A DNA stretch of 64,000 bases from Clostridia bacterium (GCA_028720205.1 JAQYLE010000014.1:1-64000), one strand, 5' to 3'. Shown: positions 7,539-31,046, counted from the first letter of the stretch. The notes: generated from the sequence alone by a model not told the origin. Program-made: numbers and translations.

Positions 7539-9318
7539 TTGCTTCACCCAAATATTTCTTTTTCCATTCGGCGATCTTAACTTTCATTTCAGGCCCGCCT
7601 ACTTTCACGCCTCCCCCCGTTTTAAACCTCGTCACACCTGTTATTCGGGCAAGGCATTCGAATTCCGAGATCATCTTCGACAATTCTTTCGGCGTATATC
7701 GATCGTGGTAAAGCTCCAAGCGCATATAATGAACAAACAAACTTTCTCTTAAAACGCGTAAACGCAACTTTTCTGTCAAGTCGTCCGAATCGCATGTTAA
7801 AACGCTTCTCAACGCTTCGTTAAGATCGTTTTCGCATTTGTCGAGAAACTCTTCACCGAAAATTTCGCGCGTAAACGCTTTCGCGCCCGTATTCCACGGA
7901 CAATAAGCGTGAAAAGGATGTTCGGGAGTATCTTTCGTATTATAGTTATCTTTTATCCTTTCGTAATATGCCATCATATAAGGGGCTGCGACTTTATAAT
8001 AATGTTCGAAAAACTCGTTTTTCAATGCCGAAACGTCTGCTTTTACATTCCACATTAAGGCGGAATGTAAATAAATTTTCAGATAGTGAAAAGTATCGGG
8101 AGAATTAAAAATTCCCTGATTGAAAATGTAAACGACTCCGTATTTCTTAAACGTTTCGTACGTACTCACCACCGTATTGTAATTATTCAGAGGTACAAGA
8201 TAACCCGCATAATTCGAACTGTAACACCAGACTAATAATTTATCAGACGTTGCCGACCATCCCAGCAGATTGTTCCGTACTTTCAGATTGCAAGTCTTGT
8301 TCATAATATCATGCGTAAAACAGGTGAAAATGGGAGCAAACATAACGCCTACGTTATGACGCGCCTTTACTTTTTCGTCTCTCAGACGGAAAGAATCCGT
8401 ATCTACGTCGTACTCTGCAGGCGGTTCTTCCGTTTTGCAATAGGCGAACGTAACGAGAAGAATTTCCCTCTCGGGAAATTCTGACGCAGCAATCTTTTTC
8501 TCTATCTCTTCGGCGACTTTATTGACGAATACCATCATAGTACCCGAGCGCCCGCCGTACTTCTGATGAGAGGCACGGCAACGCTGGCAATCGCAAAACG
8601 TATCGTCGTCTTCCTGACCGAGCATAAAATACTCCGCCGCCGGTTTATCGCAAATAATCTGCCAAAGATTATCGACGAATTGTTTAAGCATTTCATCGTT
8701 CGTCAGACAAAGCTGAGTTTTATCCGCACTGTACCAATCCGGGTGTTCTTCTGCATATTTTTCGGGCGGAAGAATAAGAAAATGCGTATGCGCCCAAAGT
8801 CCCCAGTTTCCATGGTCGTGAAGCACTCGTTTACAATAGGCGAAAGATTTGTCGTTCATCGTGCCGAAGTAGCCCAGCATTCTCGTTTCGAAATCGGGCA
8901 CGTTCCGATAAAACCCGAGCGGTAATTCTAACCGATCGGTACGCGGACAAAACGTTTCGTCCGGAGCCAAAAATCTTACTCCTAAAAACTTCTCTAAAAA
9001 TTCAACCGTTGCGTTTACGGTTCCGTCCTCGTCGTCGCCGTACAAATATACGGCGCCCGTCCGCACGTCGATATTAAATGCGTCTCGTTTTTTCTCGCGT
9101 GTTTTGTCTTTCAGAAGCGCAGCAAGTTTCTCGGTCTCTCCGACGGAAATAAAATTCCCTGTACTGTCTTCTTGTATTTCCTCTAATTCCACCCCGCAGC
9201 ATTCGTAAAAACACTTTTTCAGCAATTCAATAGCATATGCCGTCTTTTCACCGCATTCCTTCGGATATATCAAACCGAACGAAGTCCGTCCTCCGTCAAT
9301 CAACACCACGTTTTTCAT
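7531..9318 (-). CDS. DUF4838 domain protein, cytosolic paralogue
   Basis: This 595-residue protein is a close paralogue of the lipoprotein encoded just upstream; both share NWGLWAHTHF, HPDWYS, QLCLTN, EYFMLGQED followed by two CxxC-like cysteine pairs, and VTFAYCKTE. DUF4838 proteins have an N-terminal domain like that of GH67 alpha-glucuronidases and are common in glycan-use loci, but their activity is not known to me. Unlike its neighbour this copy starts directly with MKNVVLIDGGRT and has no signal peptide. ATG 9318 overlaps the upstream stop as TAATG, indicating coupled translation, and alignment with the paralogue supports this start; ATG 9339 is possible. Confidence 0.82.
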   Translation of the reverse strand: MKNVVLIDGGRTSFGLIYPKECGEKTAYAIELLKKCFYECCGVELEEIQEDSTGNFISVGETEKLAALLKDKTREKKRDAFNIDVRTGAVYLYGDDEDGTVNATVEFLEKFLGVRFLAPDETFCPRTDRLELPLGFYRNVPDFETRMLGYFGTMNDKSFAYCKRVLHDHGNWGLWAHTHFLILPPEKYAEEHPDWYSADKTQLCLTNDEMLKQFVDNLWQIICDKPAAEYFMLGQEDDDTFCDCQRCRASHQKYGGRSGTMMVFVNKVAEEIEKKIAASEFPEREILLVTFAYCKTEEPPAEYDVDTDSFRLRDEKVKARHNVGVMFAPIFTCFTHDIMNKTCNLKVRNNLLGWSATSDKLLVWCYSSNYAGYLVPLNNYNTVVSTYETFKKYGVVYIFNQGIFNSPDTFHYLKIYLHSALMWNVKADVSALKNEFFEHYYKVAAPYMMAYYERIKDNYNTKDTPEHPFHAYCPWNTGAKAFTREIFGEEFLDKCENDLNEALRSVLTCDSDDLTEKLRLRVLRESLFVHYMRLELYHDRYTPKELSKMISEFECLARITGVTRFKTGGGVKVGGPEMKVKIAEWKKKYLGEANE

Positions 9319-11237
9319 TACAGTAAATTTTTTCTCCATTCGGTAATTTTCTTGGATAAATCCGGACCGCCGACGATGCCGTCTGCAGACACATACCGGG
9401 TAACTCCGCACTCATAGGCGTCCGCCTCAAAAGAATCTATCAATTCTTCAAGCTGCGTCACGGTATAGTAAACAGGGTAAAGTTCCAGAATCATATATCG
9501 TGCATAGAGAGATTCGCGCTTTGTCCGCTTCAATATTTTATTGCGTTCTTCCACGTCTTCTATTTTCGCTATTTCTTCATAAGCTCTTTCAAAAATCGAA
9601 AGACATTGATTAAGCAACGATTTCGGCCAATATGCAGACGTCAACGTTAAAACACCCAGATTCCACGTGCAATAAGTATGGAAAGGATCGTTTTTTTCTT
9701 TGCCTTCTTTTTCCAACGCAATATAATGCGTCTTAATAAGTTCGTAATATTCCCTTACGTAGGGAGCCGCCTGTTTATAATAAGCTGAAAAGAACGCATC
9801 TTCCAGTTCCGTAACGCTTTGTTCCGGGTTCCAGAGCATTTTCGAATGAATATATACGCGCAAATCGTGGAAACTGTCGTAGGAATTATATATGCCCTGA
9901 TCGTATATATAAACAACCCCGTTTTCGCGGAAAGCACTGTAATCCGCTTTTAGCGAAGAATAATTATTGAACGGTTGAAGATATGCAGCATAGTTGGAAG
10001 AGTACGTCCAGACCATCAGTTTCGCTGAAACCGCCGCCCAACCCAACAAAGCGGTACGCGAAAGGGCGTTACAGTTTTTGTCGAGTATATCGTGTGAAAA
10101 ACAAGCGTAAATCGGAGCGAACATAACGCCTACGTTATCCGCCGCAACAACCCTCTCGTTAACGGGACGGTAACTGTCCGTCGCCTCGTCGTACGTCGTC
10201 GGAGCAGATTCCGTCTTGCAATATGCAAACGTGACTAACGTTACGTTTCGTTGCGGGTTCGTCTCCTTCAGCCATTTTTTTATTTCCGCAGCAACTGAAT
10301 TGACGAAAATCATTTGCGTGCCGCTCTCTCCTCCGTTTTCTGCGTTGGAAGCCCTGCACCTACCGCAAGTGCAAAAAGTGTTCTGATCTTCCTGCCCCAG
10401 CATAAAATATTCGGCATTCGGTTTTTCCGCAATAATCGTCTTGAGATTTTCGATGAATTTTGCTTTCATCTCTTCATTCGTCAAACAAAGTTGCGTACCG
10501 TCCGAACTGAACCAATCGGAATGATCCGTCTTGTAAGATTTTCCCGGTTCAAGATCGTAATTAATAATGGTGAAGTGGGTGTGAGCCCAAAGCCCCCAAT
10601 TCCCTACGCCTTCTCCCAAACGCATCCGCAAGGCATTATTCCGGTCTCCCTGCGTAGCTAAATAGCCGAGAGCTCTCTCTTCGAATGCCGGACGGATTTC
10701 TTCGGAATACTTATATAACGGCACATCCGTATATTCCGGCACCACGATTTCGTCGGCGGCATAAAAACAGACGCCGAGCGTCGTTTCCAGAAACTCGTAA
10801 ACGGCAAAAAGCGTACCGTCTCCTCCATATCCCGCCATAATCAGGTCGTTACCCGAAAGGACAAGATAAAATCCGTCGTCGCCGAGACGCGAATAGGAAA
10901 CTTCCAGTCCGGAAGATTGCAGAAGATCCGTTCCCCCCACGGAGAGATATTTCCCCTCCGAAGAAGTTTCGTACGTCGTTTCCAGACGAACCCCCGTGGA
11001 TTTTTCCATATACGTCGTCAGTTCTTCCGCCGCGTACCTTTCCCGATCGGACGGAATACGCGGAAGCAATATACGATAATCCGTCCGCCCGTTCTCTACG
11101 AGTTTGATCCCGCTTTCTTCATACTTCGGAGTCGTATTCGACGAACCGCCTCCCGGAGAAGTTCTTCCGCTTTCTCCGCACGATCCCCCGATTATCGCTA
11201 TTAACGCTGCCAGCAGGCAACAAATCATTTTTTTCAT
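9318..11237 (-). CDS. DUF4838 domain lipoprotein
   Basis: The 639-residue product begins with a lipoprotein signal (MKKMICCLLAALIAIIGGSC, lipobox Cys about 20) and a Gly/Ser linker, so it should be anchored on the outer face of the membrane. The rest aligns with the following gene: VENGRTDYRILLP, NWGLWAHTHF, QLCLTNEEM, EYFMLGQEDQNTFCTCGRC and VTFAYCKTE. The conserved acidic and aromatic positions suggest a carbohydrate-active enzyme of the GH67-like type, but no catalytic pair is established. AGGCGG precedes the ATG. The extracellular/cytosolic paralogue pair suggests stepwise handling of one substrate outside and inside the cell. Confidence 0.85.
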   Translation of the reverse strand: MKKMICCLLAALIAIIGGSCGESGRTSPGGGSSNTTPKYEESGIKLVENGRTDYRILLPRIPSDRERYAAEELTTYMEKSTGVRLETTYETSSEGKYLSVGGTDLLQSSGLEVSYSRLGDDGFYLVLSGNDLIMAGYGGDGTLFAVYEFLETTLGVCFYAADEIVVPEYTDVPLYKYSEEIRPAFEERALGYLATQGDRNNALRMRLGEGVGNWGLWAHTHFTIINYDLEPGKSYKTDHSDWFSSDGTQLCLTNEEMKAKFIENLKTIIAEKPNAEYFMLGQEDQNTFCTCGRCRASNAENGGESGTQMIFVNSVAAEIKKWLKETNPQRNVTLVTFAYCKTESAPTTYDEATDSYRPVNERVVAADNVGVMFAPIYACFSHDILDKNCNALSRTALLGWAAVSAKLMVWTYSSNYAAYLQPFNNYSSLKADYSAFRENGVVYIYDQGIYNSYDSFHDLRVYIHSKMLWNPEQSVTELEDAFFSAYYKQAAPYVREYYELIKTHYIALEKEGKEKNDPFHTYCTWNLGVLTLTSAYWPKSLLNQCLSIFERAYEEIAKIEDVEERNKILKRTKRESLYARYMILELYPVYYTVTQLEELIDSFEADAYECGVTRYVSADGIVGGPDLSKKITEWRKNLL

Positions 11238-11252: not shown

Positions 11253-14066
11253 TTATTCCACCGCAATCACAAAATCACGTATCACGAAATTATACTCATC
11301 GTCTCTGCAAAAATATCTGACGATATATTTCCCTTTCTTTGAAAATACATATTCCTCTTCGTCCACGATATTTATTTTTCCGCTCTCTTCGATAATAAAA
11401 ATATCCGCACGAAGATTAACGGAAACGTTATCCGTCACGATAGCGGAAGGAAATTTCACCTTTTCGCCTTTCTTGACGGTTGAAGGAAGCTTTCCATCGA
11501 TCGTCATCCGGGGCTTTACCTCGTCGAGTATTTCCACCGAATAGGTCTGCGTACTTATATTTCCTCTGGAATCGACTGCTTTGTATTCAATCTTATACAC
11601 GCCGTATGAACGCGCCGTAAAATACAAATCGGAAAGAACGGAACCGTCTTTTACGAGATAGTTCCCTTTTTTGTCCGTCACGGAAACAGTCAGAACGACT
11701 TTTTGATCAAGGACGTCCATAGCCTTTGCCGCCGGAATTTTAACTTCTTCGCCGTAATGCCGATCGCGTTTTACTTCTTCGCTCACGATAATGACGGGAC
11801 GTATATAATCGTCGTCTATATCGCTGATCATTTGATTAATCACCCGATTCACTTCTACCGCCGATATACCTTCTACGCCTTCCATAGTAAACGAAAGATA
11901 TATCTTCCCCGAAGGAAAGCCTTCGAACCGTTGTCCGTATACCGTTTCCGAAACGGTCATAATCACGCCGCTCGATGCGTCCGTGATGCTTCTTCCCTGA
12001 AGCCCGATGATAAAGAAATTATTCGTCGTCTCGTAAAAGCTTCCTAAAATATCCGCCGCTTCACCCTTATCGTTCACATACAATTTACTATAAATAGAAT
12101 CAGGGTCCGAGGAGTTTTTATAAACGGAAAGTTTTACTTTGATCCGAGGATCGGCGGCGTCTTCAAGCCATACCGCAACCGAATCGAAATGGTTATATTC
12201 GCGTGGAACCGTAAAGGAAAAGGAAAACCCCTCGGCGGGCAATGCGTTGACGAACACCCGTCCTGCGCCGTCCGTCTCCGTCGTGTATACAACCGATGTT
12301 TCTTTTGGCAACAGAGAAGTGTTTACGCTTCCGTCGTAAAAGTAATTTCCCACCTCGTCAATTTCCAGTACTTCTACCGTTTTACGAAAAACGGAAATTT
12401 TTTCAGCGTCGTACAAACAGGCGGCACGATACTCCACAATGATTTTATTTCCGAACGAAATATCAGGAACAAAAACTCTGTCCGCATAATCGGGTTCGGC
12501 GATAATATCGCCCTCTTCATTGTAGACACGTATGGATTTACGGTTTGTCTCACGTGGATAACCGGGCGTGGAAAAATAGTCGTACGCAATAAAGTCATCG
12601 AAAATCACAGGTTTCCCGCTGACGACATAACGGGGCACAAAGGGTTCCTCGATGACGGGTGTGTCACTCTCCTTTACGACAATCTTTCGGGTAAGTTTAT
12701 ATTCCCTTCTAAGATAATCCGTACAACGTACCGTCACGTTATAAACGCCCTGTTCCTCAGGTGTAAACGCGCCGTCCGCAAGCACGATTTCAGTATCGTT
12801 GCCAATCCGCTTCACCGAAGTAACAACCGTCACTTTACCCGAACCGTTCTCGGCTATTCCGCCCGGAAGTTCTATTCTCTCTCCTACCTTAGCCGAATCC
12901 GGAAATGCACCGGCAGGACGATAATAAAGATCTCCCCAAGGCTTTCGAATCTCCGTTTCAAAAATCTTTTCCGTCATCCTCCCCGCAAGGTCTTCTGCGG
13001 TGTACGTAAAGGTATACGTTCCTACCGAATCGGGAGTAAAACTGTTCAGTTCCCTCGAAAAACCTGAAGCAAAAACTTCGCCGTCCTCTCTCGTTCCCTT
13101 ATAAACGACAATCTGTGCCCCCGACATTTCTCCGTCGATTTCATCGAAAACGGTAACGGCAAAAAGCGGATACGGATAACCTACGCACCCTACGGGGACC
13201 TCTTTATTTCCTTCCGTATCCACGTAAATTACGGGATCTTTTTCGTCTGAGATTTCCCTTCCCGCCATACTTTGCCCGTTTATATTAAGCAGCATGAATT
13301 CCGCTTTCGTACGTTTGATCGACGAAAAGGTAAAAGATATATACACTTCTCCCGTCGTAAAACCGTCCCACTCTACGGAAACGTATTTCGGATCGGAAAA
13401 TTTATTGACGAGATTGCTTTCGTTTAATTGAGAATATACCTCCGGATAAGCGTAAAGCGCCCGTGCCGAATAGTCGTATCCAAGCCTCAACGTTCCGCTC
13501 AACCCTTTTACGCCGACGCCGTTAAAACTCGCATATACGGGCGTTCCGCGTTCCGTTTCCGTGTGCATCTTTTTCGTATTGGCGTTATAGCCAGCTAAAA
13601 CCTGTCCGGGAGCTTTCGCTTTAATCATTCCGATCATAGAATCGTACATTCCGCGATAAAAACTGATCGTAAGTTTATTATCGGAATCATAGGCGTCTTC
13701 TATAGTGACGATCAACTCGTAAAAGTCAGCCGTATCCTGAATAGAAGGCATAACGAGCAGTTCTGCCAATATATCGGTGCGCTTATTTGAAGAAATATCG
13801 AGTTTGTTTTTATAACGGACGGTTGCGCCCTCGTCGCCTGCGGTAAAAACGACGCCCTGTTTAGGCGAAACGTTTGTATACGCCGAACTCGTCCTGTCTT
13901 CCGATATTTTCACTCTGCCGTCGGATTCGAAAAGCCTACCGTAAGAGGTGAATTCGTCCGCAGCAACAGTCCCCCCGTTTTCCTCGGCAACCGCAAACGT
14001 TACGCCTATCAAAGACAACGCGACAAAAACAACGGAGGCAAAAAAGACGTAAAAAATTTTTTTCAT
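11253..14066 (-). CDS. Large secreted Ig-like surface protein, no C-terminal anchor
   Basis: The 937-residue product starts with a signal peptide (KKIFYVFFASVVFVALSLIG, then TFAVAEE). It contains two copies of a module shared with the two other giant proteins of the operon (about residues 55-270 and 600-730), the first ending GEVYISFTFSSI and then LLNINGQSM. Between and after them lie bacterial Ig-like beta-sandwich repeats (for example GTYTFTYTAEDLAGR and YKIEYKAVDSRGN). No transmembrane tail is seen, so it is probably released or bound to partners. ATG 14066 has GAGGG upstream; TTG 14081 is less likely. It follows the second permease gene by 28 bases, suggesting a glycan-capture role. Confidence 0.82.
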   Translation of the reverse strand: MKKIFYVFFASVVFVALSLIGVTFAVAEENGGTVAADEFTSYGRLFESDGRVKISEDRTSSAYTNVSPKQGVVFTAGDEGATVRYKNKLDISSNKRTDILAELLVMPSIQDTADFYELIVTIEDAYDSDNKLTISFYRGMYDSMIGMIKAKAPGQVLAGYNANTKKMHTETERGTPVYASFNGVGVKGLSGTLRLGYDYSARALYAYPEVYSQLNESNLVNKFSDPKYVSVEWDGFTTGEVYISFTFSSIKRTKAEFMLLNINGQSMAGREISDEKDPVIYVDTEGNKEVPVGCVGYPYPLFAVTVFDEIDGEMSGAQIVVYKGTREDGEVFASGFSRELNSFTPDSVGTYTFTYTAEDLAGRMTEKIFETEIRKPWGDLYYRPAGAFPDSAKVGERIELPGGIAENGSGKVTVVTSVKRIGNDTEIVLADGAFTPEEQGVYNVTVRCTDYLRREYKLTRKIVVKESDTPVIEEPFVPRYVVSGKPVIFDDFIAYDYFSTPGYPRETNRKSIRVYNEEGDIIAEPDYADRVFVPDISFGNKIIVEYRAACLYDAEKISVFRKTVEVLEIDEVGNYFYDGSVNTSLLPKETSVVYTTETDGAGRVFVNALPAEGFSFSFTVPREYNHFDSVAVWLEDAADPRIKVKLSVYKNSSDPDSIYSKLYVNDKGEAADILGSFYETTNNFFIIGLQGRSITDASSGVIMTVSETVYGQRFEGFPSGKIYLSFTMEGVEGISAVEVNRVINQMISDIDDDYIRPVIIVSEEVKRDRHYGEEVKIPAAKAMDVLDQKVVLTVSVTDKKGNYLVKDGSVLSDLYFTARSYGVYKIEYKAVDSRGNISTQTYSVEILDEVKPRMTIDGKLPSTVKKGEKVKFPSAIVTDNVSVNLRADIFIIEESGKINIVDEEEYVFSKKGKYIVRYFCRDDEYNFVIRDFVIAVE

Positions 14067-14094
14067 ATTATTTTCCCTCAAAATCCGTCGAAAC

Positions 14095-15003
14095 TTAACC
14101 TTTCAACCCGCCGATCGCGATATTTCCCACCAACTTATCCTGAAAGAGAACGAACAAAACGAAAATCGGCACCATCGCCAGCGTACACCCCGCAAGTTGC
14201 ATAGGCACGGAATTGATTTCGGGATCAAGTGAAAACTGATACTGAAACAAACCATAAGCCACGGTAGGATAGCTGGGCAGATAAATCATCGGAGATTGAT
14301 AGTCGTTCCACATATTGATAAAGCACAGCAGCCCCGTAACGAACACTGTAGTCTTTGCCAAAGGAATCATTATATTGAAAAGAATTTTCCAATGCGAAGC
14401 CCCGTCGATTAAGGCGGCTTCCGCATATTCCCAGGAAATCCCCTTGAAAGTCGCGTAAAAAATCAGGAAATTCGTTCCTAAGAACCCTGCTTTCATGATG
14501 ATGATTCCAAACATGTTATCGTACCAACCGATAGCGCGTATCAGCTGTAATTCAGAAGCCAAGGAACCGACTATAGGCATAATCATCGCGACGATGACGA
14601 AACCGTAGAGGAATCTTCCGAACTTGAAGTTATACTTAGCACAGGCATAGGCGACAAAACAGTGAGACATTGTGGTAACTATCGTTCCGCCCAACGTATA
14701 GATAATGGTATTAAACAACATTTCCCACATATATACGTTACGACTTCCCGTAGGCGTCTGAATCCGCACGTACAGTTTATTGAAAGCCGTCGAATAATTG
14801 GAAAATTTCCATACCTTCGGCAATCCGAAAGGATTGTTATAAAAGTCCAACCGTCCTTTTACGGAACTGAGCAGCATCCACAGAATGGGAATCAGCAAAG
14901 ACAACGAATAAATAAGTAAGATTATAAAGAAGATGATCGGAAACACCTGACGCATCATTCCTTTATTATATACTTTTTTTTGATTTTTTTCTTCTTCGCT
15001 CAT
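14095..15003 (-). CDS. Carbohydrate ABC transporter permease (MalG/LplC type)
   Basis: This is the second inner-membrane subunit of a sugar importer of the CUT1 class. The 302-residue protein has about six membrane spans, starting with FPIIFFIILLIYSLSLLIPI, and the cytoplasmic EAA loop EAALIDGASHWKILFNIMIP that docks on the ATPase. It ends in the family-typical KLVGNIAIGGLKG. AAGGAG precedes the ATG at 15003. Its gene follows the MalF-type permease gene by 16 bases and the binding-protein gene lies upstream of that. No ATP-binding subunit is encoded nearby, so an ATPase from elsewhere (MsmK-like) must be shared. Confidence 0.95.
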   Translation of the reverse strand: MSEEEKNQKKVYNKGMMRQVFPIIFFIILLIYSLSLLIPILWMLLSSVKGRLDFYNNPFGLPKVWKFSNYSTAFNKLYVRIQTPTGSRNVYMWEMLFNTIIYTLGGTIVTTMSHCFVAYACAKYNFKFGRFLYGFVIVAMIMPIVGSLASELQLIRAIGWYDNMFGIIIMKAGFLGTNFLIFYATFKGISWEYAEAALIDGASHWKILFNIMIPLAKTTVFVTGLLCFINMWNDYQSPMIYLPSYPTVAYGLFQYQFSLDPEINSVPMQLAGCTLAMVPIFVLFVLFQDKLVGNIAIGGLKG

Positions 15004-15019
15004 ATAGGCGTTCTCCTTG

Positions 15020-16084
15020 TTAAAACTCTGTATTCGGTCCGTATTTTTCCAACAACCATTTGACGGTTAATGTAACGGGCGCGGCAATTGCCGTGAAAAT
15101 AAGCCCCATTGCGCTGGCATACGGATAATCAGCGTTAGAGGAAGCCGATCCCACAACTCTTACAAAGAAATAATATCCCAGGGTATTGATATTGGGAGGT
15201 GCGTTTCCGCCGTAGAAATTATACGCCGAAACCTGCGAAGTAAAGAAGCCGGATACGCTGACGACCATCATCGTTACCAACGTCGGATAGATTAACGGCA
15301 ACGTGATATGCCAAAATTCCTGCCATATACTCAAACCGTCCAATCTGCCGTATTCGATAATGCTATCCGGAATACGGCTCATAGCACCCGTATAGAGAAT
15401 AATCGAGCCTCCGAATCCCGCCCACATACCGTAGAAGAGCAACGTCCAATATCGGGTTTCTACATTAGAAAGCAAACTCATCGGCAATTCTTCCGAATGC
15501 GTGAGGATTTTAACAAGATAAGGAACCCCGACTTCAACAAAGTATTTGAACATTAAAGTAACTACGATCGATGAAATAATCTGCGGTAAAAACAATACTA
15601 TTTTGAAAAAACCGCTTCCCGGCAATCTTTTATAAATGAAGAACGAAAAAACAACGCAAAGAGGAAAGAATATGCCCTGCATAAATAAATATGTTATACA
15701 GGAATTTTTAATTGCCGTCTTCATAACAGATTCGTATTTCACTGCCTGAAAAAATTTCACGAAATTAGAGATACCGTCGAAATAATACTTTCCCAGGTTG
15801 ATATCGTACTTTTCAAAAGCGAGAAAAATAGAATTAAGATTTACCCCTACATAAAATATCGTAACATGAATTACGGGATATAAAAGCAGCGTAAACAGAA
15901 ATATGCGTTCGCTCTTCTTAAAATGTCCCATCGACCGGGCTTTCTTTTTTTTCTTAGAATGCAGCCAAACCGATAAATCATAAAATAAATCTTTAATCAT
16001 CGAAAAAAATGAACGGATTGCTAAAGAAACATTTTCAGGTATCGATTTTAAAATCTGCATGAAACCTTTTTTCTCTTTCTTCAT
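15020..16084 (-). CDS. Carbohydrate ABC transporter permease (MalF/LplB type)
   Basis: The 354-residue membrane protein is the first permease subunit of the CUT1-type importer. After a basic N-terminus of about 60 residues with KKKKKARSMGHFKKSE it has about six membrane spans (first span near FLFTLLLYPVIHVTIFYVGV) and the EAA-type loop RLDGLSIWQEFWHITLP. The start ATG 16084 follows AAGGAG at a ten-base gap. It should pair with the MalG-type permease encoded next and receive sugar from the lipoprotein encoded just upstream. The long basic N-terminal extension is somewhat unusual but seen in LplB-like members. Confidence 0.94.
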   Translation of the reverse strand: MKKEKKGFMQILKSIPENVSLAIRSFFSMIKDLFYDLSVWLHSKKKKKARSMGHFKKSERIFLFTLLLYPVIHVTIFYVGVNLNSIFLAFEKYDINLGKYYFDGISNFVKFFQAVKYESVMKTAIKNSCITYLFMQGIFFPLCVVFSFFIYKRLPGSGFFKIVLFLPQIISSIVVTLMFKYFVEVGVPYLVKILTHSEELPMSLLSNVETRYWTLLFYGMWAGFGGSIILYTGAMSRIPDSIIEYGRLDGLSIWQEFWHITLPLIYPTLVTMMVVSVSGFFTSQVSAYNFYGGNAPPNINTLGYYFFVRVVGSASSNADYPYASAMGLIFTAIAAPVTLTVKWLLEKYGPNTEF

Positions 16085-16151
16085 CTATGCTTTTCTCCTT
16101 AAATTCCTTTGGTCTAGAGTGATCCGTAGCATCGGTAAGTATATTTCCCTC

Positions 16152-17792
16152 TTATGCGCCAAGAATCATTTCTTTCCAATATACTTCGCTGTAACGTTTC
16201 TGAAGTCCCGAGAAATAATCTTCCACAGTCAAATCGCGATAATCCTTAAAGGTATGAATCGGATCGTTTACGTAACCTTTTTTGGATTCGCTACCCCAGC
16301 TCCATGTATATAATTCGTTTTGATGCGTCATACGTAATTCGTTTTTCGTAAGCGCATGAACGATTTCAACGTCTTCTCTGTGATACAGATCCCACATACT
16401 CTTCTGAAAATAGGTCAAATTGTTATAGGATTCTTGCGATAATGTATAATCGTAAGGACGGCTTACGCCCGTATTTTTCGTAAAAATTTCCAAAGCTTCG
16501 TTCGAGGTTGAATAACGCAGAAATTTCATTGCTATATCCTTACGCGTACTTCGATCGTTAACTACTACCGCCGTCGATCCGGGGGTATACAGCGTGATTC
16601 CGTCGTATTTCTGATCGGGCACTCCTTCTGTTCCAACGAATTTCGGAACGGGCATAAGACCGAATCTTCTCGTTTTATAGGCATACTTTTGATCGATCTC
16701 AACTGCCATATCACCGAAGATTCCTCTTGCCTCGTATTCCCACCAGCCGCCGTCTATAATCATAGCAATCGGCGACGATTTTTCACGGCTCATCAAAAAT
16801 TCCGTCTGCGCGTTCGAGTGAGTCTGAATCGTAGAATACGCCTGCGTAGAAGCGTAATTTTTCGAAGCGAGATCGTGCGCCAGCGTCAAGGCTGCCAATT
16901 TCCCCGACTGTTGCTGTAAAAGATAGGCGTTCTGATTGGTAATTTCTCCCAATGAGCTATCCGTTCCCGAAAAAGTATAATTGAGTTTAAAATTAGACAG
17001 ACCTTCGTATCCCGCCCAGATGGAATCAAGGAACCATTCTCTGTACCCTGTATAGGCGCCAGCCCAAGTGACGGGAGTTATCCCCATATTCTGCATACGG
17101 TTGAACAAACTCTTCATCTGTTCGTACGTTTCGGGAAGTCCGTCGTCAAAAGTTCCTGCTTTCCCGTCGCGCCCGACCGATTTATTTTCCGCACCCGTCC
17201 ACGTTATTTTGCCCCCTTCTACGGAAGAGATGAATAACTTTCTTTCTTCAAACAGATCCACGTCGTAAACATATCCGTATAACGCGTCGAAATAAGGAAT
17301 GGCATAATATGAAGTTTTTCCGTTCTCCGTAACGGCGTAGTGGTTTCGGCTGTCGCTATCCATTTTATCGGCGATGCTGACGCTTTCACCGAATTCCGTC
17401 AAAGGCTGCGTCACGGCTTCGGTAATATCCGCAATCAACCCGTTGGTTTTGTAGTCCATCATCTGAATGGACGTGGTAAAATATATATCTTCTTTTCCGT
17501 CGGGCATATAGCTTCTCAGATTAGTATAACTGTACTTTTCCTTGTCCGGCTCAATCATAACCTGATATTCCGGATACTTTTCTTCAAATCCGTACTTCAA
17601 CTGATTCATCCAATCAAGCCCCATTCCTCCGTTATAGTAACCTACGTATAACTGTTTTCTGTTCGGATCAACTTTTTCCTGCTCTCCGCTGTTATCTCCT
17701 TTAAATCCGCACCCCGCGGCAAAAACAGAAGTAGAAGCGACAAGGAATCCGATAGCCAAACAGGTCAATTGTCTTTTTTTCAAGTTTTTCAT
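16152..17792 (-). CDS. Extracellular solute-binding lipoprotein of sugar ABC importer
   Basis: The 546-residue product has a type II signal (VASTSVFAAGCGF, lipobox Cys about 28) and a bacterial extracellular solute-binding fold of family 1 type: LYVGYYNGGMGLDWMNQLKY at the N-terminus, later GWWEYEARGIFGDM and MKFLRYSTSNEAL. It should be tethered outside the membrane and deliver oligosaccharides to the two permeases encoded next. ATG 17792 has GGAG nine bases upstream and overlaps the stop of the preceding giant-protein gene as ATGA, so translation is probably coupled. An upstream in-frame start (17873) would bury the signal peptide and is rejected. Confidence 0.93.
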   Translation of the reverse strand: MKNLKKRQLTCLAIGFLVASTSVFAAGCGFKGDNSGEQEKVDPNRKQLYVGYYNGGMGLDWMNQLKYGFEEKYPEYQVMIEPDKEKYSYTNLRSYMPDGKEDIYFTTSIQMMDYKTNGLIADITEAVTQPLTEFGESVSIADKMDSDSRNHYAVTENGKTSYYAIPYFDALYGYVYDVDLFEERKLFISSVEGGKITWTGAENKSVGRDGKAGTFDDGLPETYEQMKSLFNRMQNMGITPVTWAGAYTGYREWFLDSIWAGYEGLSNFKLNYTFSGTDSSLGEITNQNAYLLQQQSGKLAALTLAHDLASKNYASTQAYSTIQTHSNAQTEFLMSREKSSPIAMIIDGGWWEYEARGIFGDMAVEIDQKYAYKTRRFGLMPVPKFVGTEGVPDQKYDGITLYTPGSTAVVVNDRSTRKDIAMKFLRYSTSNEALEIFTKNTGVSRPYDYTLSQESYNNLTYFQKSMWDLYHREDVEIVHALTKNELRMTHQNELYTWSWGSESKKGYVNDPIHTFKDYRDLTVEDYFSGLQKRYSEVYWKEMILGA

Positions 17793-20700
17793 TTTCTTTT
17801 TCTCCTTTTTACCAATAAGATTGTTCCAACGACGACGCCCGCTAAGACCGCTACGCCTCCGACTACCGCCCACGCTATCGCCGCTACGTTCAGTTTTTTG
17901 ATTTCATAAGTTTTTTCTGTCAGATTCCCGGTATAATCCACGGCTCTCACCGTTACGCGATACTTTCCTTTCAAAGCCGTGAATTTACCGTCTTCTAATT
18001 CAACCAGCCGACCGTCGCATGTCACGATTACGCTAACGGAAAGTTCTCCGTCCTCGTCGTCGACTGCCGTAAAACCGCTCACGTCGATGCTTTCACCGCT
18101 TTTATAATGCTTTGGCAGTGTGGGGCCCGAAATTAAGGGAGCAATCCCGTCCACAATCGTCATAAGTTCTTCCAGATATACCGTTTCCTCGTTTTTTGTC
18201 GCGGTATAAACTATCGTATACGTTCCGCGTCCGTCTGCCACGAAGGCGGTTTCCTCGCCTTCGTAAACCGTCTTATCTCCGTTTTTTACGGTGATGAGTA
18301 TTCGCGCGTCCGAGACCTCGTTACCGAAATAATCTTTCACGTTCGCTTCGCTCAGAAGTATGGTTTTCCCCGTCTTTTCCGTAACGGAATTTTCCCGGTT
18401 CAACGAGATTTCCAGCCAATAGTCGCGGACGTCGAAAACAAATACGAGCTTATCCGTAAATCCCGCAGAATCCACCGCGCGATATTCAACAACGTACATT
18501 CCCGAAGAGGCGGGAATAAAAATGCCGTCGACAAGCAGATCCGAAACGTCGGTTTCGTTTTCTCCTGCAAGTTTTTTGATCGTTACCGTGTATCCGAGAC
18601 GAGAGAATCCGATATCTTCAACTACCGCTTCGGGCAACAGAACGGATGCTCCGGTCAACGCTTTGAACACAAAACTTTTGGCACTGAGTTTTTCGATAAG
18701 CTGCGCTCCATCTAACCGCTCTATGTCCGATTGCGGCACAATGACGGGAGCGCTATAATCGATGGCGTCGATCAGCACCCATGCATATCCGATATTACCC
18801 GCCTCGTCCGTTGCGGTAAAACGCAACGTATAGACGCCCGCCCGATCGAACAGCGCGGAAAGATCTGTTCCGTCCTGTATTTCTATCCATTTTTCCGAGG
18901 CGGTATCTCCCCTTTTCTCACCGTATAAAAATTCGGTTTTCTCAAGAGAAACAACTATGTCTTTATTGTCTAAAATTTCTATTTCCGAATAGGAAACGAT
19001 AAGCTCTCCGCTTCCCGCGTCATAATTAAAATCTCCTTCTTTCCAGAAAATTTCGGGCGGAACATCGTCGTAGGAAATTAAAATTTTTCTAATCAAAACA
19101 TCTCGGTTCAGCACGCCTTCCGTCGTATACTCCACCGTGTATGTAACCGTATATTCTCCTATTGGCGAATCGTTTCCGAAACGATACGCATCTCCCGTAA
19201 ATTGTTCCTCTCCGTTAAACAGAACGGAAATATTCACGCTTACAGACGATGAAGACGAGATATTCCCCAATATCCCGTCGCTTACGGTGATATTGTTACG
19301 CTCTATTACGAAAGCAGGGCGCTTTTCGCCGATAACCCACTTTTCTTCGGCTGTATTTCCGGATGAGAATTCCACCTTAATTCTAACCGCGTCCAGATAG
19401 ATTTGTTTAAAGATTTCGTTCCCTTTGCAGTCGGTGCCTCTGTATTCGAGCAGATATTTTCCGGAGTTGGGAAACACATAATATAGATTTTCCTTTACGG
19501 CAACCGTTTCCAGTACGGTTCCGTTTTGACGGATCGTAAGGAATAAAGCGACATTTTCTCCGCTATTCATATTCGAATAAGCGCGCGCACCCAATTGAAT
19601 TCCGGTCGGCGTCAAACTATCTTTCGCCTCGTCGCCCGAAAACAACGCGTTAGAAAATTCAATGCCCGTTTCCAGCCGATCGTAAACGGTAAAATCGCAA
19701 AAAAATTCTGCCCCGTCCGCCCCGAAACTATCCTTCCAGTCTCTGTAAAAAACGCGGTATACGCCCGATTCGGTCGGTCTGAAAGAAGCGTCTTTTCCCC
19801 GATAAACCTCTATGCCTTGACTGTATACGACGTATTCTCCGTTGAAGGAGAGAGACGGTTCGATTACGTCGCAGAGTACCGGCTCGACAAACGCATAATC
19901 TTCGCCGAGCAACAAGTTATCCGAAGACGCGTACCCTGCGGGAGCTGCGTTTCGAACGATTCTTCCGAAATTGTTGTCGAAACTCTGCCCGTCGATTCCG
20001 AGAATCATCAATCCGGCAGGAGCCGAAGGATCGCTGCTGTTTACCGTTACGGAAAGCTTAACGGATTTCGATGAAAATCCCTTAAATTTTACGTCGGACA
20101 GGCTAAGCCCGAGCGCATTGCCAAAATCGGGATTTCTTAAATCGCGCACCAAAACCGGCGCATCAACTTCTCCTTCCGTTCCGGAAACGAATCTATAAGG
20201 AGCAACGTAAACGCAATCGGATTCATTATCGTAATACAATTTGACTGAATCGTATTTTCCCGTATACGAAGAGGCGCCCGCAACTCCGCTATCCGCAAGT
20301 CCGAAAGGCAAATGCGTTCCTTCCGTCGCGGAAAGTTCGTTCTTATTGATCCCGAGAAGTTCCTGTCCTTTTCCGCCCGCCGTAACATAGGCAAAATCAG
20401 CCGTCATCGATTGCGTGATACGTATTTCAACATAAATATTCTCGTTTGCGGAATCCGTCAGGCGTATCGTAATATTGCTTAACCCGGCCGCTTTTTTTCC
20501 CTCTCTCTGAGTGACTAACGGCATCAGTTCCAATAAACAATCGGACGAAGTATTGTCCGCAAGATAAATTTCTCCCGTATAAGAAACCGTGGCATTATCG
20601 CCTCTGGCGGCAAAACCGATTCCTTTATAGGTGCTTCCGTCGCCGTACGTAGGGGTTCGCTGTACCGTACCGGAGTAAATCACGGCAGAAGAATCCGCCG

Positions 20701-22342
20701 AAAGTAATTCGGAAAGTTGCGAATAGACGTAAATTTCCCGTACTTCTTCATACGAATCCCCGTCTTTTTCAGCAGTCAGAACAAGCCGCCATATTCCCGC
20801 CGTCACGGGGACGAATTGCCGTTCCGTCGATCCGTCGTCCGAAAATTCCTCGCTACCGTCCGGGCGAAGAAGCCGTCTTCTCGCCGTCGCCTCTTCAGTC
20901 CCCTGAAACGCTTCAACCGCGGGAACTTCCACCCCCGTGCCGACAAACGCATATTCCGCTAAACGTCCGCATTCAAAATGCATTCTTTCGAGCACCTGTA
21001 CCGATACGCTTGTTTCAGGAACCGCGTTGTTGAAAAGATCTGTTGCCCGAAAAACGATACGATATTCTCCCGCCCGATCAGGCGTAAAAGAATCTTTACC
21101 GTCCGCCGTCAGCCCTTCGAGAATCAGATTTCCTCCCGAATAAACATCGGCAAACACTTCATCGGTATATCCGTTCAGATACCCCTCGTTTATCGTATGA
21201 ACGCACGGAATGAAAACGGTTTCCCCGATTCCGTAGTTTTGCTTCGGCTCGGACAAGAAAGACAGAGAACTTTTTTCCGGCAATTTGCTTGCCGTGGGCA
21301 ATTTGTATTCCAGAAAAGCGTTGCCGTTCGGGTCTTTAAACTGCACGGTGTACGTGCCCGTTTCCGTAACGAAAGAGGAATCGCGCGTTACAGGTCCGTC
21401 AAACGGTTTCTGCGACATCTTTTTCACGGTGCAAACGAACCCCTCGGCGTCCCTTTTTCCGTACAGAAGATCAAAGCTGCACGGCATCGGCAGACGATAA
21501 ACGGTGTTCTGATATGCCTGCGCGTTACGCGTAATGACAAACGTCTTTTCCTCTGATTCCGAAATCACGTTTCGTCCGTCGAGCTCCGTTAAAAGAAACG
21601 AAGACGAGGTGACTTCCGAAGAAAATGTTTTATCAAGAAAACGAACGGACGTATAGGCCGTAACCGAAAAATCAACTTCTCCCGACGGGAATCCGTCGAA
21701 AACGACGGGATCGATTACGTCGGAATAACCGTCAAGAGACCTCACTAAGGTTTTTTGCTCACCCGTAGCCACATAAACGTCTTTTCTTTCGTTATCGTAA
21801 ATAAAAGAAATCGGCTTTCCGGAAGAAGTTTCTACTCTCGTTCCGTCCAGAGCGTAAGCCCCGTCGACGACAAAGATTCCGTCTTCGTCTTTCACATATC
21901 CCGCCGTATTTTCTCCGAGTACGCCTGCCGAAGCGTAATAATCTTCCATTAATACACCGTTCTGCGCCCGCTTGCCAAGCACGGCGCAAAAACCTCTGTT
22001 CGGATCTTTCGCATCGCAAACGCGTATTTCAAGGCGCACAAGTCCCGTAAGATCCGGAATGATCGTACATAAAGCGTCCGACTCGGTATTGTCGGCAATA
22101 TATAAAGTATGTCTGTAATCCAGACGGTAAACGGAAGAAGAAGAAACGGTTTCAATCCCCGAAAGATTGTTTCCGTCAACGGAAGCAACGCCGATCCGCA
22201 TATCGGCGTTTTCCGCGGAAAACATATCCGACGGAAAAACGCTCTCCGCCGTACCCGAAAGAGGCAAAGCGATCGCCGCACAAAAACACAATGCAAAGCC
22301 GACGCTTAATCCGTATATCGTCTTTCTGTATGATTTTATCAT
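17789..22342 (-). CDS. Giant Ig-like surface protein with C-terminal membrane anchor
   Basis: The 1517-residue product has a signal segment (YGLSVGFALCFCAAIALPLS) and a C-terminal span followed by a basic tail (VVGGVAVLAGVVVGTILLVK then RRKRK). It carries two copies of the module shared with the neighbouring giant proteins (about residues 50-280 and 570-830, the second ending MILGIDGQSFDN). A long series of Ig-like repeats follows, with motifs such as YTLRFTATDEAGNIGYA and YVVEYRAVDSAG. It should stand out from the membrane as a long arm. ATG 22342 is chosen because it immediately precedes the signal segment, although its ribosome site (GGGAAAAG) is weak; upstream in-frame codons would give an unlikely basic leader. 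Confidence 0.82.
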   Translation of the reverse strand: MIKSYRKTIYGLSVGFALCFCAAIALPLSGTAESVFPSDMFSAENADMRIGVASVDGNNLSGIETVSSSSVYRLDYRHTLYIADNTESDALCTIIPDLTGLVRLEIRVCDAKDPNRGFCAVLGKRAQNGVLMEDYYASAGVLGENTAGYVKDEDGIFVVDGAYALDGTRVETSSGKPISFIYDNERKDVYVATGEQKTLVRSLDGYSDVIDPVVFDGFPSGEVDFSVTAYTSVRFLDKTFSSEVTSSSFLLTELDGRNVISESEEKTFVITRNAQAYQNTVYRLPMPCSFDLLYGKRDAEGFVCTVKKMSQKPFDGPVTRDSSFVTETGTYTVQFKDPNGNAFLEYKLPTASKLPEKSSLSFLSEPKQNYGIGETVFIPCVHTINEGYLNGYTDEVFADVYSGGNLILEGLTADGKDSFTPDRAGEYRIVFRATDLFNNAVPETSVSVQVLERMHFECGRLAEYAFVGTGVEVPAVEAFQGTEEATARRRLLRPDGSEEFSDDGSTERQFVPVTAGIWRLVLTAEKDGDSYEEVREIYVYSQLSELLSADSSAVIYSGTVQRTPTYGDGSTYKGIGFAARGDNATVSYTGEIYLADNTSSDCLLELMPLVTQREGKKAAGLSNITIRLTDSANENIYVEIRITQSMTADFAYVTAGGKGQELLGINKNELSATEGTHLPFGLADSGVAGASSYTGKYDSVKLYYDNESDCVYVAPYRFVSGTEGEVDAPVLVRDLRNPDFGNALGLSLSDVKFKGFSSKSVKLSVTVNSSDPSAPAGLMILGIDGQSFDNNFGRIVRNAAPAGYASSDNLLLGEDYAFVEPVLCDVIEPSLSFNGEYVVYSQGIEVYRGKDASFRPTESGVYRVFYRDWKDSFGADGAEFFCDFTVYDRLETGIEFSNALFSGDEAKDSLTPTGIQLGARAYSNMNSGENVALFLTIRQNGTVLETVAVKENLYYVFPNSGKYLLEYRGTDCKGNEIFKQIYLDAVRIKVEFSSGNTAEEKWVIGEKRPAFVIERNNITVSDGILGNISSSSSVSVNISVLFNGEEQFTGDAYRFGNDSPIGEYTVTYTVEYTTEGVLNRDVLIRKILISYDDVPPEIFWKEGDFNYDAGSGELIVSYSEIEILDNKDIVVSLEKTEFLYGEKRGDTASEKWIEIQDGTDLSALFDRAGVYTLRFTATDEAGNIGYAWVLIDAIDYSAPVIVPQSDIERLDGAQLIEKLSAKSFVFKALTGASVLLPEAVVEDIGFSRLGYTVTIKKLAGENETDVSDLLVDGIFIPASSGMYVVEYRAVDSAGFTDKLVFVFDVRDYWLEISLNRENSVTEKTGKTILLSEANVKDYFGNEVSDARILITVKNGDKTVYEGEETAFVADGRGTYTIVYTATKNEETVYLEELMTIVDGIAPLISGPTLPKHYKSGESIDVSGFTAVDDEDGELSVSVIVTCDGRLVELEDGKFTALKGKYRVTVRAVDYTGNLTEKTYEIKKLNVAAIAWAVVGGVAVLAGVVVGTILLVKRRKRK

Positions 22343-22377
22343 ATTTTCGCTTTTCCCGATTATTTTATCCGCACGAT

Positions 22378-22425
22378 CTCCGGAAAGGGTTTCACCGTTC
22401 CGGAGAACGCGCCGTCCGTCCCGTT
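22378..22425 (-). promoter_or_regulatory. Two hairpins between the giant surface-protein genes
   Basis: In the gap between the two giant-protein genes an 8-bp perfect stem (CTCCGGAA at 22378-22385 with TTCCGGAG at 22398-22405) is followed by a short stem GTCCC/GGGAC around 22418-22432. No T-run follows on the minus strand, so these look like RNA processing or stability elements rather than a terminator. This would help set different amounts of the two surface proteins. Inference only. Confidence 0.4.
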
Positions 22426-22457
22426 CGGGGACGATTAACAATTTAATTTTCCGTAGG

Positions 22458-25400
22458 TTAATCTTTCTTCTTTTTGCAAAGAATAGCCACGCCAGCAAGC
22501 AACGACATTGACATCATTCCCAAACTTCCGATAAACGATCCGCACCCTGATTTTTTTGCGGGGGGATTTTCCGAACCGGGATCTCCACCTGAAGACGGAG
22601 GAGGCGTCACAGGATCGGACGAAGGAGGCGTCACAGGATCAGACGAAGGAAGAATGGTAAGATCCTTTTCCAGATCCCCTTCGTAGTTTTGCTCCCCGAC
22701 GGTATAAGAGAATACAAACACTACCTTATATTCACCCGCTTCAAGCGTATCGTTCAGAACGACGTTCTCGCCGCTCGAAATCACCGTTTCGCCTTTCATC
22801 AATTTAACAGTCAAGACGAAATCGGTAACTTCGCCCGCCTCTGCATCGACAATGCGCAAATCGTCCTTATTAAATGTAACGCCGTCGCCGCCGACCGTAT
22901 ATGAATTCTTCGTCGGATTGAGATCGGATACCTCAAAGCGGTTCCGTACTTCGAAATCGAAAGATACCGTTTCGCCTTTCTTTCCCATAGCATCGGTATA
23001 ATCCGAATAAGTTACCGTATAAATACCCGCTTTTTCGGCGACGAATTTACCGTCCGTAATCTGTACGGAAACATCGCCGCACGATACTTTAGTCCGTCCG
23101 TTAAACGTAATTTTTCCGTCGATGATATCGTAAACAGACGCTTCTTTCAAAACGATTTCGTCTCCGATATATGCGTTTGCATACGTCTGATTCCCCAACG
23201 TAAGAGAAGGCGCCGCATTCTCGGTAAGAATTCCGGCCTTGTTGTCAAACGATTGCCCGTTGAGCCCCAATAAAAGCAGCTTTGCGGTCTTGCCCGCACC
23301 GATATTCAGGAATTGGAAAGAAACGTATACTTCGCCTGTCGTAAAGCCCTCGAACGGATCGCCGAATCCTGCACCGTATTTATCGGCGGAACCGAAATCT
23401 CTCACTTTCGTATAGTTCTCGTTTGCGTCCTCTCCGAGGTTTTTCCAACGGGCGGGGTAAGCATACAACGCATTATCTTTCAGATAGAGTTTGACTGAAT
23501 TAAAGCCGAGCGTATAGTCGGGGTTGCCTCCGTTGCTCTGCGTGCCGTCGAAGCCGAAAGGAAGAAATGTACCGTATGTTCCGTGAAGAGCGTCGCCCGC
23601 GAAAAGAACGGTACCGTCCGCCTGCTTGTCTACATTCTTATGCCAACCCGCAAACTGCTGTCCGGTTGCGGCGGCTTTAAGATGAGACAGATTGGATGAA
23701 GAGGCATATACGCTATAATCAATCGTGATTTTTTTCTGCGCGTCGTATTTATCCGTCAAGGTGATCAACAAACTGCCGAAATCGAATTCCCATTTGCCCT
23801 GCACGTCGCTGACGATCATAAATTCAACGAACGGCGTATCAAGACTATCATTCAGGTTAATTGCTTCCTGATAAGTGAAAACGTCGTTGCTTGTCGTAGC
23901 CGTTACCAAGACGCCCGTTCTGGTATCAGTCACGCCTTTGGTCGGCGTATAAGAATATCCGTTTTTACCGATGTTTACGCTTTCCGACGTCGCATCCGCC
24001 GACAACAGATCCTTGCCGTAAACGCCCGAATAGATTTCGTATTCTCTCGTTCTCGTTTCGCCGTCAAACTCATAGCTGTAAACGAGGGTATATTTCCCTG
24101 CTTTTTCTAATTCGGCAGCGTTGTAAGTAACAGCATCCGCTTCGGCAGACAAAGCCGTTTCCTTCTTGTCCGGATCGATCAATTTTGCCGTGACGGCATA
24201 ATTTTCATCTCCAAAAACGGCGATACCGACGGGGAAACGCGCCTCGCTGCCGACTTCATAACTTTCGGTAAGTTCCGTCGCGAGAGAAAAGTCTGCGTCG
24301 AAATAGACCTCCGTCTGCTTTTCAAGCGTTTTTTGCACACCCGTGCTGTCCGTAACGGTATAGCGCAGCGTATAATTCCCTTTTTCTGCAAACACGTATT
24401 CCGCGCCGACGAACGTTTCATAGCCGGAGAAAGAGGCGATTTCCTGCGTACCTTTCAAAATCTGCACGTCCGCATATTTTTTAATGCCGTAATTTAAGCC
24501 CGCGTCAGTTAAAACAGCGGGGGAAACGGTATACGGAACGCCTTTCAGCACTTTGTTCTGAACCTGTCCGTCTACGGCAAGAGTTCCGGAAACAGCGTTT
24601 GCAGGTAAAACATTCAACGGAGATACAGCCGTTTTGCCGTTTTCGGTATAAGCGACAGAATACGTTCCCGCGACGGTCGGCGTGAATTTCCCGTTCGAAA
24701 CGCTTACGGAACCTCCGGAAGGATCTGTTACGGTATAGGCGCCGCTAACGCTCGAGTCGGAAACGCCGCTCTTTGCCCCGAAAATTTTGGCGGCGGGAAG
24801 AGTATATTCGCTTCCGACGACGCCGGCTTTTTCAAGAACGGGCACGCCGCCGCTCTTCGCGTCGGTAGTCGAAAAATTCTCGCCCAACGTCTGTCCGTCC
24901 ACGGAACAGATCATGTAATGCGCGCTATCAAACCGATTTACGCCGTCGGCGGTTAACCCCATTGTCTCCACTTTGACGGACACGATAACGGCTTCGCTAT
25001 CGAAAACGTCGCTCACCGCGCCGCCGTACTTTGTTGAATCCACGGAAAAATCGCGGATCATTAAAGCGTTGGTTTCACTGTCGACCGTTCCGCCGAAACC
25101 GCTCTCTCCGCTCGCATAGCGACTCGGCGATACGTAGAGCTTGGTTCCGTCCAGATAGAAAGCATACGGTTTATGTTCGCTGACAGCATAATTCGAGTTA
25201 TTCCCTCCAAGTCCCACGCCGATATTCATCGCCCAATCGGCGTCATAGGTACCGTCTTTCTTTACGCCAGTCAATTTTTGGGCGGCGCCGGCTCTAGCCA
25301 AAGTTCTCGCGCTGTTCAAGGCATTGAACGAGGAATCCATAGAGATTTCAACGAACTTCTCATAGTCGTATGCGTCCGTCAAGGTAATCGTCAATTTTTC

Positions 25401-25748
25401 GGCTTCCGCAAAACCAGTAATCTGTCCGTCCGCGTTCTTTTCGGGCGTCATCAACAGTTCCAGAATCGGCGTATCCAAGCCGTTATCTCCGATATAGACG
25501 GGATTTTTCAACGTTACCGTCGCTCCCGCCGTCGCCGTTACTCCGACGCCTTTATACGTCGTTCCGTTCCCCGCCACATAAGATTCGTCCGCTTTCGTCT
25601 CCGCGTTTACCGCATTGAACAGCGAAGCGGCACTGGAATCGGCGTTTGCGCCGAAAAATCCCGTCAGCGATGCGCTTGCTCCCGCAACGCCAATGACCAA
25701 AGCCGCCGAAAGAGCCGCTTTTTTCATCGTTTTGCTTTTTTTGCTCAT
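22458..25748 (-). CDS. Giant surface protein with Cys-Gly C-terminal sorting-like tail
   Basis: The 1096-residue product has a signal peptide (KKAALSAALVIGVAGASASL) and two copies of the shared module (about residues 60-310 and 590-870). The second copy ends GEVYVSFQFLNI and LLLGLNGQSFDN. Ig-like repeats separate them. The C-terminus has a Pro/Ser/Asp repeat linker, then KKSGCGSFIGSLG, a hydrophobic span and KKKKD, a three-part tail like those of CTERM-type sorting signals but with Cys-Gly at the head. ATG 25748 has a strong GGAGG. It is separated from the oxidoreductase gene by a 56-base AT-rich gap, so an extra promoter or weak hairpin there (AACGGGAAACCG) is possible. Function inferred: glycan binding at the cell surface. 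Confidence 0.83.
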   Translation of the reverse strand: MSKKSKTMKKAALSAALVIGVAGASASLTGFFGANADSSAASLFNAVNAETKADESYVAGNGTTYKGVGVTATAGATVTLKNPVYIGDNGLDTPILELLMTPEKNADGQITGFAEAEKLTITLTDAYDYEKFVEISMDSSFNALNSARTLARAGAAQKLTGVKKDGTYDADWAMNIGVGLGGNNSNYAVSEHKPYAFYLDGTKLYVSPSRYASGESGFGGTVDSETNALMIRDFSVDSTKYGGAVSDVFDSEAVIVSVKVETMGLTADGVNRFDSAHYMICSVDGQTLGENFSTTDAKSGGVPVLEKAGVVGSEYTLPAAKIFGAKSGVSDSSVSGAYTVTDPSGGSVSVSNGKFTPTVAGTYSVAYTENGKTAVSPLNVLPANAVSGTLAVDGQVQNKVLKGVPYTVSPAVLTDAGLNYGIKKYADVQILKGTQEIASFSGYETFVGAEYVFAEKGNYTLRYTVTDSTGVQKTLEKQTEVYFDADFSLATELTESYEVGSEARFPVGIAVFGDENYAVTAKLIDPDKKETALSAEADAVTYNAAELEKAGKYTLVYSYEFDGETRTREYEIYSGVYGKDLLSADATSESVNIGKNGYSYTPTKGVTDTRTGVLVTATTSNDVFTYQEAINLNDSLDTPFVEFMIVSDVQGKWEFDFGSLLITLTDKYDAQKKITIDYSVYASSSNLSHLKAAATGQQFAGWHKNVDKQADGTVLFAGDALHGTYGTFLPFGFDGTQSNGGNPDYTLGFNSVKLYLKDNALYAYPARWKNLGEDANENYTKVRDFGSADKYGAGFGDPFEGFTTGEVYVSFQFLNIGAGKTAKLLLLGLNGQSFDNKAGILTENAAPSLTLGNQTYANAYIGDEIVLKEASVYDIIDGKITFNGRTKVSCGDVSVQITDGKFVAEKAGIYTVTYSDYTDAMGKKGETVSFDFEVRNRFEVSDLNPTKNSYTVGGDGVTFNKDDLRIVDAEAGEVTDFVLTVKLMKGETVISSGENVVLNDTLEAGEYKVVFVFSYTVGEQNYEGDLEKDLTILPSSDPVTPPSSDPVTPPPSSGGDPGSENPPAKKSGCGSFIGSLGMMSMSLLAGVAILCKKKKD
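22600..22647. repeat. 24-bp tandem repeat coding a Ser-Asp-Pro linker
   Basis: Two near-identical 24-bp units (one base different) encode SSDPVTPP twice in the linker before the C-terminal tail of the surface protein. Such repeats can change copy number by slippage and alter linker length. Confidence 0.75.
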
Positions 25749-31016: not shown

Positions 31017-31046
31017 ATGATTCCTCCCGACCATTTTCTGCCCCTT

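Follow-up and report, generated by a model that had tools for sequence, protein, structure and literature searches.

A predicted lectin-like module of giant surface proteins and the five-gene sugar-import cassette to which it belongs in gut Clostridia

A 64,000-nucleotide stretch of DNA from a Clostridia bacterium (GCA_028720205.1 JAQYLE010000014.1:1-64000; "the window" below means this whole stretch) encodes three giant surface proteins, A, B and C, each of which carries two copies of the same module. Their genes lie on the minus strand within one long gene row; the other window genes given below with coordinates are likewise on the minus strand unless stated otherwise. Protein A (1096 aa, 22458-25748) consists of a signal peptide, module A1 (24864-25628), an immunoglobulin-like (Ig-like) region, module A2 (23229-24017), a further Ig-like region and a C-terminal membrane segment ending in CKKKKD. 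Protein B, about 1517 aa long if counted from its probable ATG (17789-22342; the listed open reading frame starts from 22498), includes the divergent module B1 (21545-22231), module B2 (19964-20713), many Ig-like repeats and a C-terminal membrane segment with RRKRK. Protein C, of about 937 aa (11253-14066; listed open reading frame to 14081), has a signal peptide, module C1 (13248-13955), Ig-like domains, the short, degenerate module C2 (11826-12368) and again Ig-like domains, and is devoid of a C-terminal anchor. Between B and C are located the genes of an ABC sugar importer: a solute-binding lipoprotein (SBP; 16152-17792, listed open reading frame to 17873; SBP_bac_1/SBP_bac_8 just under the cut-off), permease 2 of the MalF/UgpA type (15020-16084; BPD_transp_1 8e-13; MalF and AlgM1 in the PDB) and permease 1 of the MalG/UgpE type (14095-15003; BPD_transp_1 1e-16; NCBIfam). 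The span 11253-25748, to which an earlier note, made from the sequence alone, assigned the six copies, does hold A, B and C but also encloses the importer genes (14095-17873).

Comparison of A, B and C against one another by protein BLAST reveals the shared segments, two in each protein. With leave-one-out hidden Markov models (HMMs) set against 1000 shuffles, A1, A2, B2 and C1 were recovered at E <= 1e-20, and B1 and C2 near 1e-5. Because circularity had to be avoided, an external HMM was built from 75 module relatives, all from outside the window. It matched C1 (3.7e-64), A2 (1.3e-36), B2 (5.6e-23), A1 (4.4e-20) and B1 (3.9e-11), with 0.003 for the best shuffled copy and no match to the Ig-like segments of the same proteins, which served as a control. 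Copy C2, shorter than the others (about 180 residues), scored at chance level with this HMM as a single sequence (0.002). The C2 region is kept in 54 canonical proteins, i.e., equivalents of C, and the profile built from them matched the module profile with a probability of 98.2 and an E-value of 3.7e-14 over 171 columns; it is on this comparison that we include C2, the support from its single sequence being insufficient. The external HMM and the C2 profile match therefore show that all six copies are real, and bear out the earlier count of two per giant protein. The layout of C, with a strong first copy, a short second one and Ig-like domains between and after them, is the rule among its relatives.

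In no copy of the module did any Pfam or NCBIfam family exceed its curated cut-off, and the 79 module members showed no recurring match to these databases but only scattered weak ones, such as those to Laminin_G_3 in two of them. An OmpL47-type domain model did pass its cut-off in protein B; its best stretch (466-502), however, belongs to the Ig-like region and lies outside the modules. By sequence, no PDB chain was significant for the module. With no family over the cut-off, identity with a named family was rejected; the HMM comparison that the earlier note had proposed as a check has thus been run, and its statement that the module is unnamed was correct. The AlphaFold2 model of C1 (window positions 13215-13979, submitted with 78 relatives) is all beta, with a predicted local distance difference test score (pLDDT) of 92.2 and a predicted template modelling (TM) score of 0.88. 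Foldseek returned 11 PDB matches to it at E <= 0.001, nearly all of them concanavalin A-like (ConA-like); the best solved structures (E 9e-5 to 1e-2) are a phage baseplate protein, glucanases of glycoside hydrolase (GH) family 16, legume lectins, carbohydrate-binding module (CBM) family 66 and SPRY domains, and ulvan lyase is also among them. We read the module, as modelled, as a remote ConA-like beta-sandwich and a member of none of these families. It would have its fold in common with ConA-like lectins and glucanases (GH16, CBM66, legume lectins, Laminin_G_3), but differs from them by the absence of a significant sequence match, by TM-scores of only 0.3-0.4 and by the lack of the GH16 catalytic signature ExDxxE, which was found in none of the 23 members obtained without motif selection; GH16 enzyme identity was rejected on this last ground. 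The lectin-like beta-sandwich envisaged earlier is probably correct as regards the type of fold and the role, though the similarity is a distant one.

The ordered motifs by which the module was originally described are complete in A2 and C1 and nearly so in B2, but not in the remaining copies: A1 lacks GFxxGEVY, B1 lacks ELM and LYAYPAR, and C2 lacks ELM, LYAYPAR and GQSF. Over the 79 members, the strongest positions are the Asp closing the LTD strand, the Asp and Asn of the YDxxN that comes next, a site rich in Gly and the loop WxGFTTGEV. Conservation of WxGFTTGE is inflated, since most of the 79 loci were retrieved by the pattern WxGFTTGE[VC], whereas the Asp of the LTD strand is invariant in 79/79 and also in the members that were not selected by the pattern. 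In several of the 23 motif-unselected members, and also in B2 and C2, the Glu of GFTTGE has given way to Lys, Ser or a different residue. In the first module alignment no stretch was conserved enough for a contig scan.

Protein C is the canonical member of a nearly fixed five-gene cassette, in which SBP, permease 2, permease 1, the module protein (as the fourth gene) and a DUF4838 protein follow one another at about 100 loci of gut Clostridia. The loci comprise 20 from the genus, for which the module score was the sole criterion of choice, and 80 further ones. In the former the order is kept nearly without exception, the apparent gaps being mostly contig edges or opposite-strand open reading frames retained by the simple gene caller. 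In the 80-locus set, DUF4838 is found directly 3' of the module gene at 66 of the 68 loci that have a gene there, and permease 1 directly 5' of it at 62 of 74, with five more where it is one gene away; permease 2 and SBP are in place at 58/71 and 55/69 loci, respectively. The adjacency of module and transporter is not a local chance. The link between the two, drawn in the earlier note from the window, recurs in the gene order of about 100 loci and in co-divergence with the SBP (see below); neither the DUF4838 partner nor the recurring cassette had been reported there, and this fixed five-gene unit is a stronger finding than the module itself. A second cassette is present in the window genome on contig C27. 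The cassette contains no ATPase gene, and the sole MalK-type ATPase domain detected in the genome is located on another contig (G000:C50:9212-9409); one ATPase may therefore serve all cassettes. At locus L024 (G024:C201) the module protein is read across one in-frame TGA, which could reflect a pseudogene, an assembly error or recoding.

According to a simple hydropathy scan, a signal-peptide-like N-terminus is present in all 75 full-length module proteins and a C-terminal membrane segment in only three of them, all three being extra copies encoded 5' of SBP, where A and B are also found. The C-terminus of A (22458-22560) resembles that of a 1327-aa module protein encoded 5' of SBP at locus L068: both end in similar fashion, with a G-C-[GA]-S stretch, then a membrane segment and finally basic residues (KSGCGSFIG...CKKKKD in A, KGGCASSVTG...KKREKRSK in the other), perhaps an unnamed C-terminal sorting signal. 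At locus L106 three further module-bearing proteins follow DUF4838 in a row, at least two of them with lipoprotein-like N-termini.

The gene directly after that of protein C (9318-11237) encodes a clear member of the DUF4838 family (PF16126 4.5e-55; Glyco_hydro_67N 1.8e-4) and is followed by a second copy (7531-9411; PF16126 3.8e-61). The AlphaFold2 model of the former (pLDDT 92.1) was matched by Foldseek to GH115 alpha-glucuronidases, GH84 O-GlcNAcases and GH67 (E 1.7e-15 to 1e-10, TM 0.35-0.53), and its N-terminal domain matched GH67 by profile (2.9e-8). The protein is thus predicted to have the overall fold of GH115/GH84/GH67 and is probably a glycosidase. Our literature search on DUF4838 and on the cassette found nothing informative; for DUF4838 it yielded no demonstrated activity and, in the library searched, a single paper that names the family. 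The genes after DUF4838 vary from locus to locus and include those for Ig-like and hyaluronate-lyase-type N-terminal domains, GH3, GH94, rhamnosidases and GH20. At loci L055-L117 many of the proteins in this position are large and secreted, with Big_2 in 33/57 and the hyaluronate-lyase N-terminal beta domain in 16/57; most of the large secreted ones have no recognised catalytic domain and may be polysaccharide lyases that have diverged and are linked to the cassette.

Within the genus, the module is present in 37 of 57 genomes, a single one of which can give as many as 15 matches; more than a dozen module loci may be found in a genome of about 2 Mb. It was also found in 12 of the 297 genomes sampled at the level of the order, and no match outside the order was obtained at E <= 1e-6 in samples of the class (about 390) and of the phylum (399). 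A wide distribution was rejected on this basis; the module appears to be confined mainly to one, Christensenellales-like, order. Among the genomes with a name that have the module, Clostridia metagenome genomes from the hindgut of ruminants and from chicken predominate, and Candidatus Borkfalkia (Christensenellales) and Candidatus Gallimonas are represented; two module loci are labelled Bacilli. Searches of IMG/VR with the module patterns confirmed no viral relative, and a phage or viral origin was rejected, the matches to phage tail folds reflecting the shared ConA-like fold only.

Across 49 complete cassettes, distances between module proteins correlate with those between SBPs (r=0.84) and DUF4838 proteins (r=0.83), which could in part reflect species relationships. 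These cannot explain the correlation among the 11 complete paralogous cassettes of genome G039, since all of them reside in one genome: here the module protein correlates with SBP at r=0.92 and with DUF4838 at r=0.88 (both reached in 0/5000 permutations), and with the permeases at 0.61-0.72. Each cassette therefore diverges as a unit, which is what a ligand common to the module, the binding protein and the enzyme would lead one to expect. Such a correlation would also arise from a common history of duplication by itself, and the lower values for the permeases are compatible with both readings.

Taken as a whole, we consider it probable that the module is a carbohydrate-binding ConA-like beta-sandwich carried on Ig-like stalks and a part of a sugar-import cassette, and that the module protein captures complex sugars on the cell surface so that they can be taken up. 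In this case the module proteins would be secreted, and the modules of the canonical protein would hold the glycan or its fragments outside the membrane, while the DUF4838 partner, as a glycosidase of the GH115/GH84/GH67 type, and the nearby enzymes would trim it. The lipoprotein SBP could then hand over the product to the permeases, import being energised by the MalK-type ATPase shared in trans, and A and B would be extra, membrane-anchored module carriers added to the cassette. Several points weigh against this explanation. The canonical module protein has no visible cell anchor, and signal peptides and anchors were judged by the hydropathy scan only. The TM-scores of the module lie below 0.5, and ConA-like folds also cover enzymes and SPRY protein-binding domains. 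Besides, the conserved residues are Gly, Asp, Thr and Glu with one Trp, form no obvious aromatic sugar platform and may be structural.

As the ConA-like fold includes polysaccharide-degrading enzymes, the module itself might be a lyase or a GH16-like glycosidase. Its best structure matches indeed include GH16 glucanases and ulvan lyase, and one Asp is invariant in all members. We nevertheless regard an enzymatic function as improbable: the GH16 signature is missing from all 23 motif-unselected members, the Glu of GFTTGE is replaced in several of these and in B2 and C2, and two diverged tandem copies per protein are more typical of binding modules. The giant size, the many Ig-like repeats and the membrane anchors of A and B, along with SPRY domains among the fold matches, would suit structural or adhesive proteins of a surface layer or of host or fibre attachment, which occur in sugar operons by chance and bind proteins or cell-wall polymers instead of the imported glycan. 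This is unlikely in view of the near-invariant position between permease and DUF4838, of over a dozen diverged copies in some genomes and of a divergence that tracks the SBP and the enzyme of the same cassette, not expected of a general adhesin. An equally unlikely possibility is that the module protein serves in the assembly of the transporter, as a subunit that docks the SBP or the DUF4838 enzyme to the permeases and binds no sugar itself. The fixed position directly after permease 1, the absence of an own anchor in the canonical protein and the co-divergence with both SBP and DUF4838 could all be accounted for in this way. On the other hand, the well-studied CUT1 importers, to our knowledge, need no such subunit, extra module proteins, either anchored or of lipoprotein type, are found away from the canonical position, and the predicted fold is most often a sugar-binding one.

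Beyond the two DUF4838 genes, the row after C continues with genes for a GH94-like phosphorylase (5010-7547; PF17167 3e-29), a GH1 beta-glucosidase (3615-4973; TIGR03356 over the cut-off), an SGNH/GDSL esterase (2466-3572; PF14606 1.7e-37) and a LacI-type sugar-responsive regulator (1373-2479; PF13377 8e-25; NCBIfam RbsR-like under the cut-off). The GH94, GH1 and esterase genes hint at an esterified beta-linked oligosaccharide as the substrate. A promoter scan stayed at the shuffle level and was not used, and a role in anti-phage defence was rejected, PADLOC giving no match. As for the rest of the window, a 349-aa protein with no Pfam match (29985-31034) heads an SIS / PfkB kinase / SIS group upstream of the operon; a serine recombinase (34311-35795) and a BspA-type leucine-rich-repeat protein (37751-40603) near it mark a possible mobile or variable region; and the plus strand encodes a lipoprotein-like protein of 1140 aa (48162-51584) that has a membrane segment at its C-terminus and also matches nothing in Pfam.

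Gram-positive polysaccharide utilisation loci (gpPULs) have been defined by at least one gene of a polysaccharide-degrading enzyme together with a carbohydrate transport system and a transcriptional regulator, the definition naming no obligatory surface-binding protein; in the Roseburia group, polysaccharide binding was ascribed by the authors to CBMs (PMC5320581). Transport is represented in the window by SBP and the two MalF/MalG-type permeases, regulation by the LacI-type protein, and enzymes by GH1, GH94-like and glycosidase-fold DUF4838 proteins; GH1 and GH94 act on oligosaccharides, and polysaccharide degradation would be a presumed activity of the locus. The gpPULs of Roseburia/Eubacterium rectale likewise combine enzyme genes, an ABC sugar importer and a regulator, with many substrate-specific loci per genome; unlike them, nearly every locus considered here has one module protein and one DUF4838 gene at fixed positions. 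The five-gene unit thus resembles the published gpPUL type and adds two recurrent partners absent from that description (PMC5320581). With the SusCD loci of Bacteroidota and their surface glycan-binding proteins it shares a repeated, diverged core unit and (putative) surface sugar-binding proteins marking each locus. It differs from them in having an ABC importer, different folds and a Gram-positive host, and in the absence of SusC, SusD or TonB-type parts; no SusC or SusD genes were found among the window proteins scanned.

Our best reading, accordingly, is that the module binds carbohydrates as a surface component of Gram-positive polysaccharide-utilisation loci of a type not yet described. 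More tentatively, and with somewhat less than even confidence, we propose a Gram-positive counterpart of Sus: a fixed five-gene unit in which an ABC importer and an uncharacterised family of glycosidases would have a new lectin-fold surface protein as their obligatory partner. In Christensenellales-like bacteria of the hindgut, this unit would have undergone at least a dozen duplications per genome, its copies being re-specialised as whole units for different glycans. Uncultured Clostridia are widespread in the animal hindgut, where their selection and uptake of glycans are largely unknown, and we know of no hallmark gene of Gram-positive loci comparable to SusD. The module and the cassette offer such a hallmark, by which these loci may be found and counted automatically, and the cassette names two protein families, the module and DUF4838, as partners. 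It also leads to the prediction that the binding protein, the lectin module and the enzyme of each cassette share one substrate.

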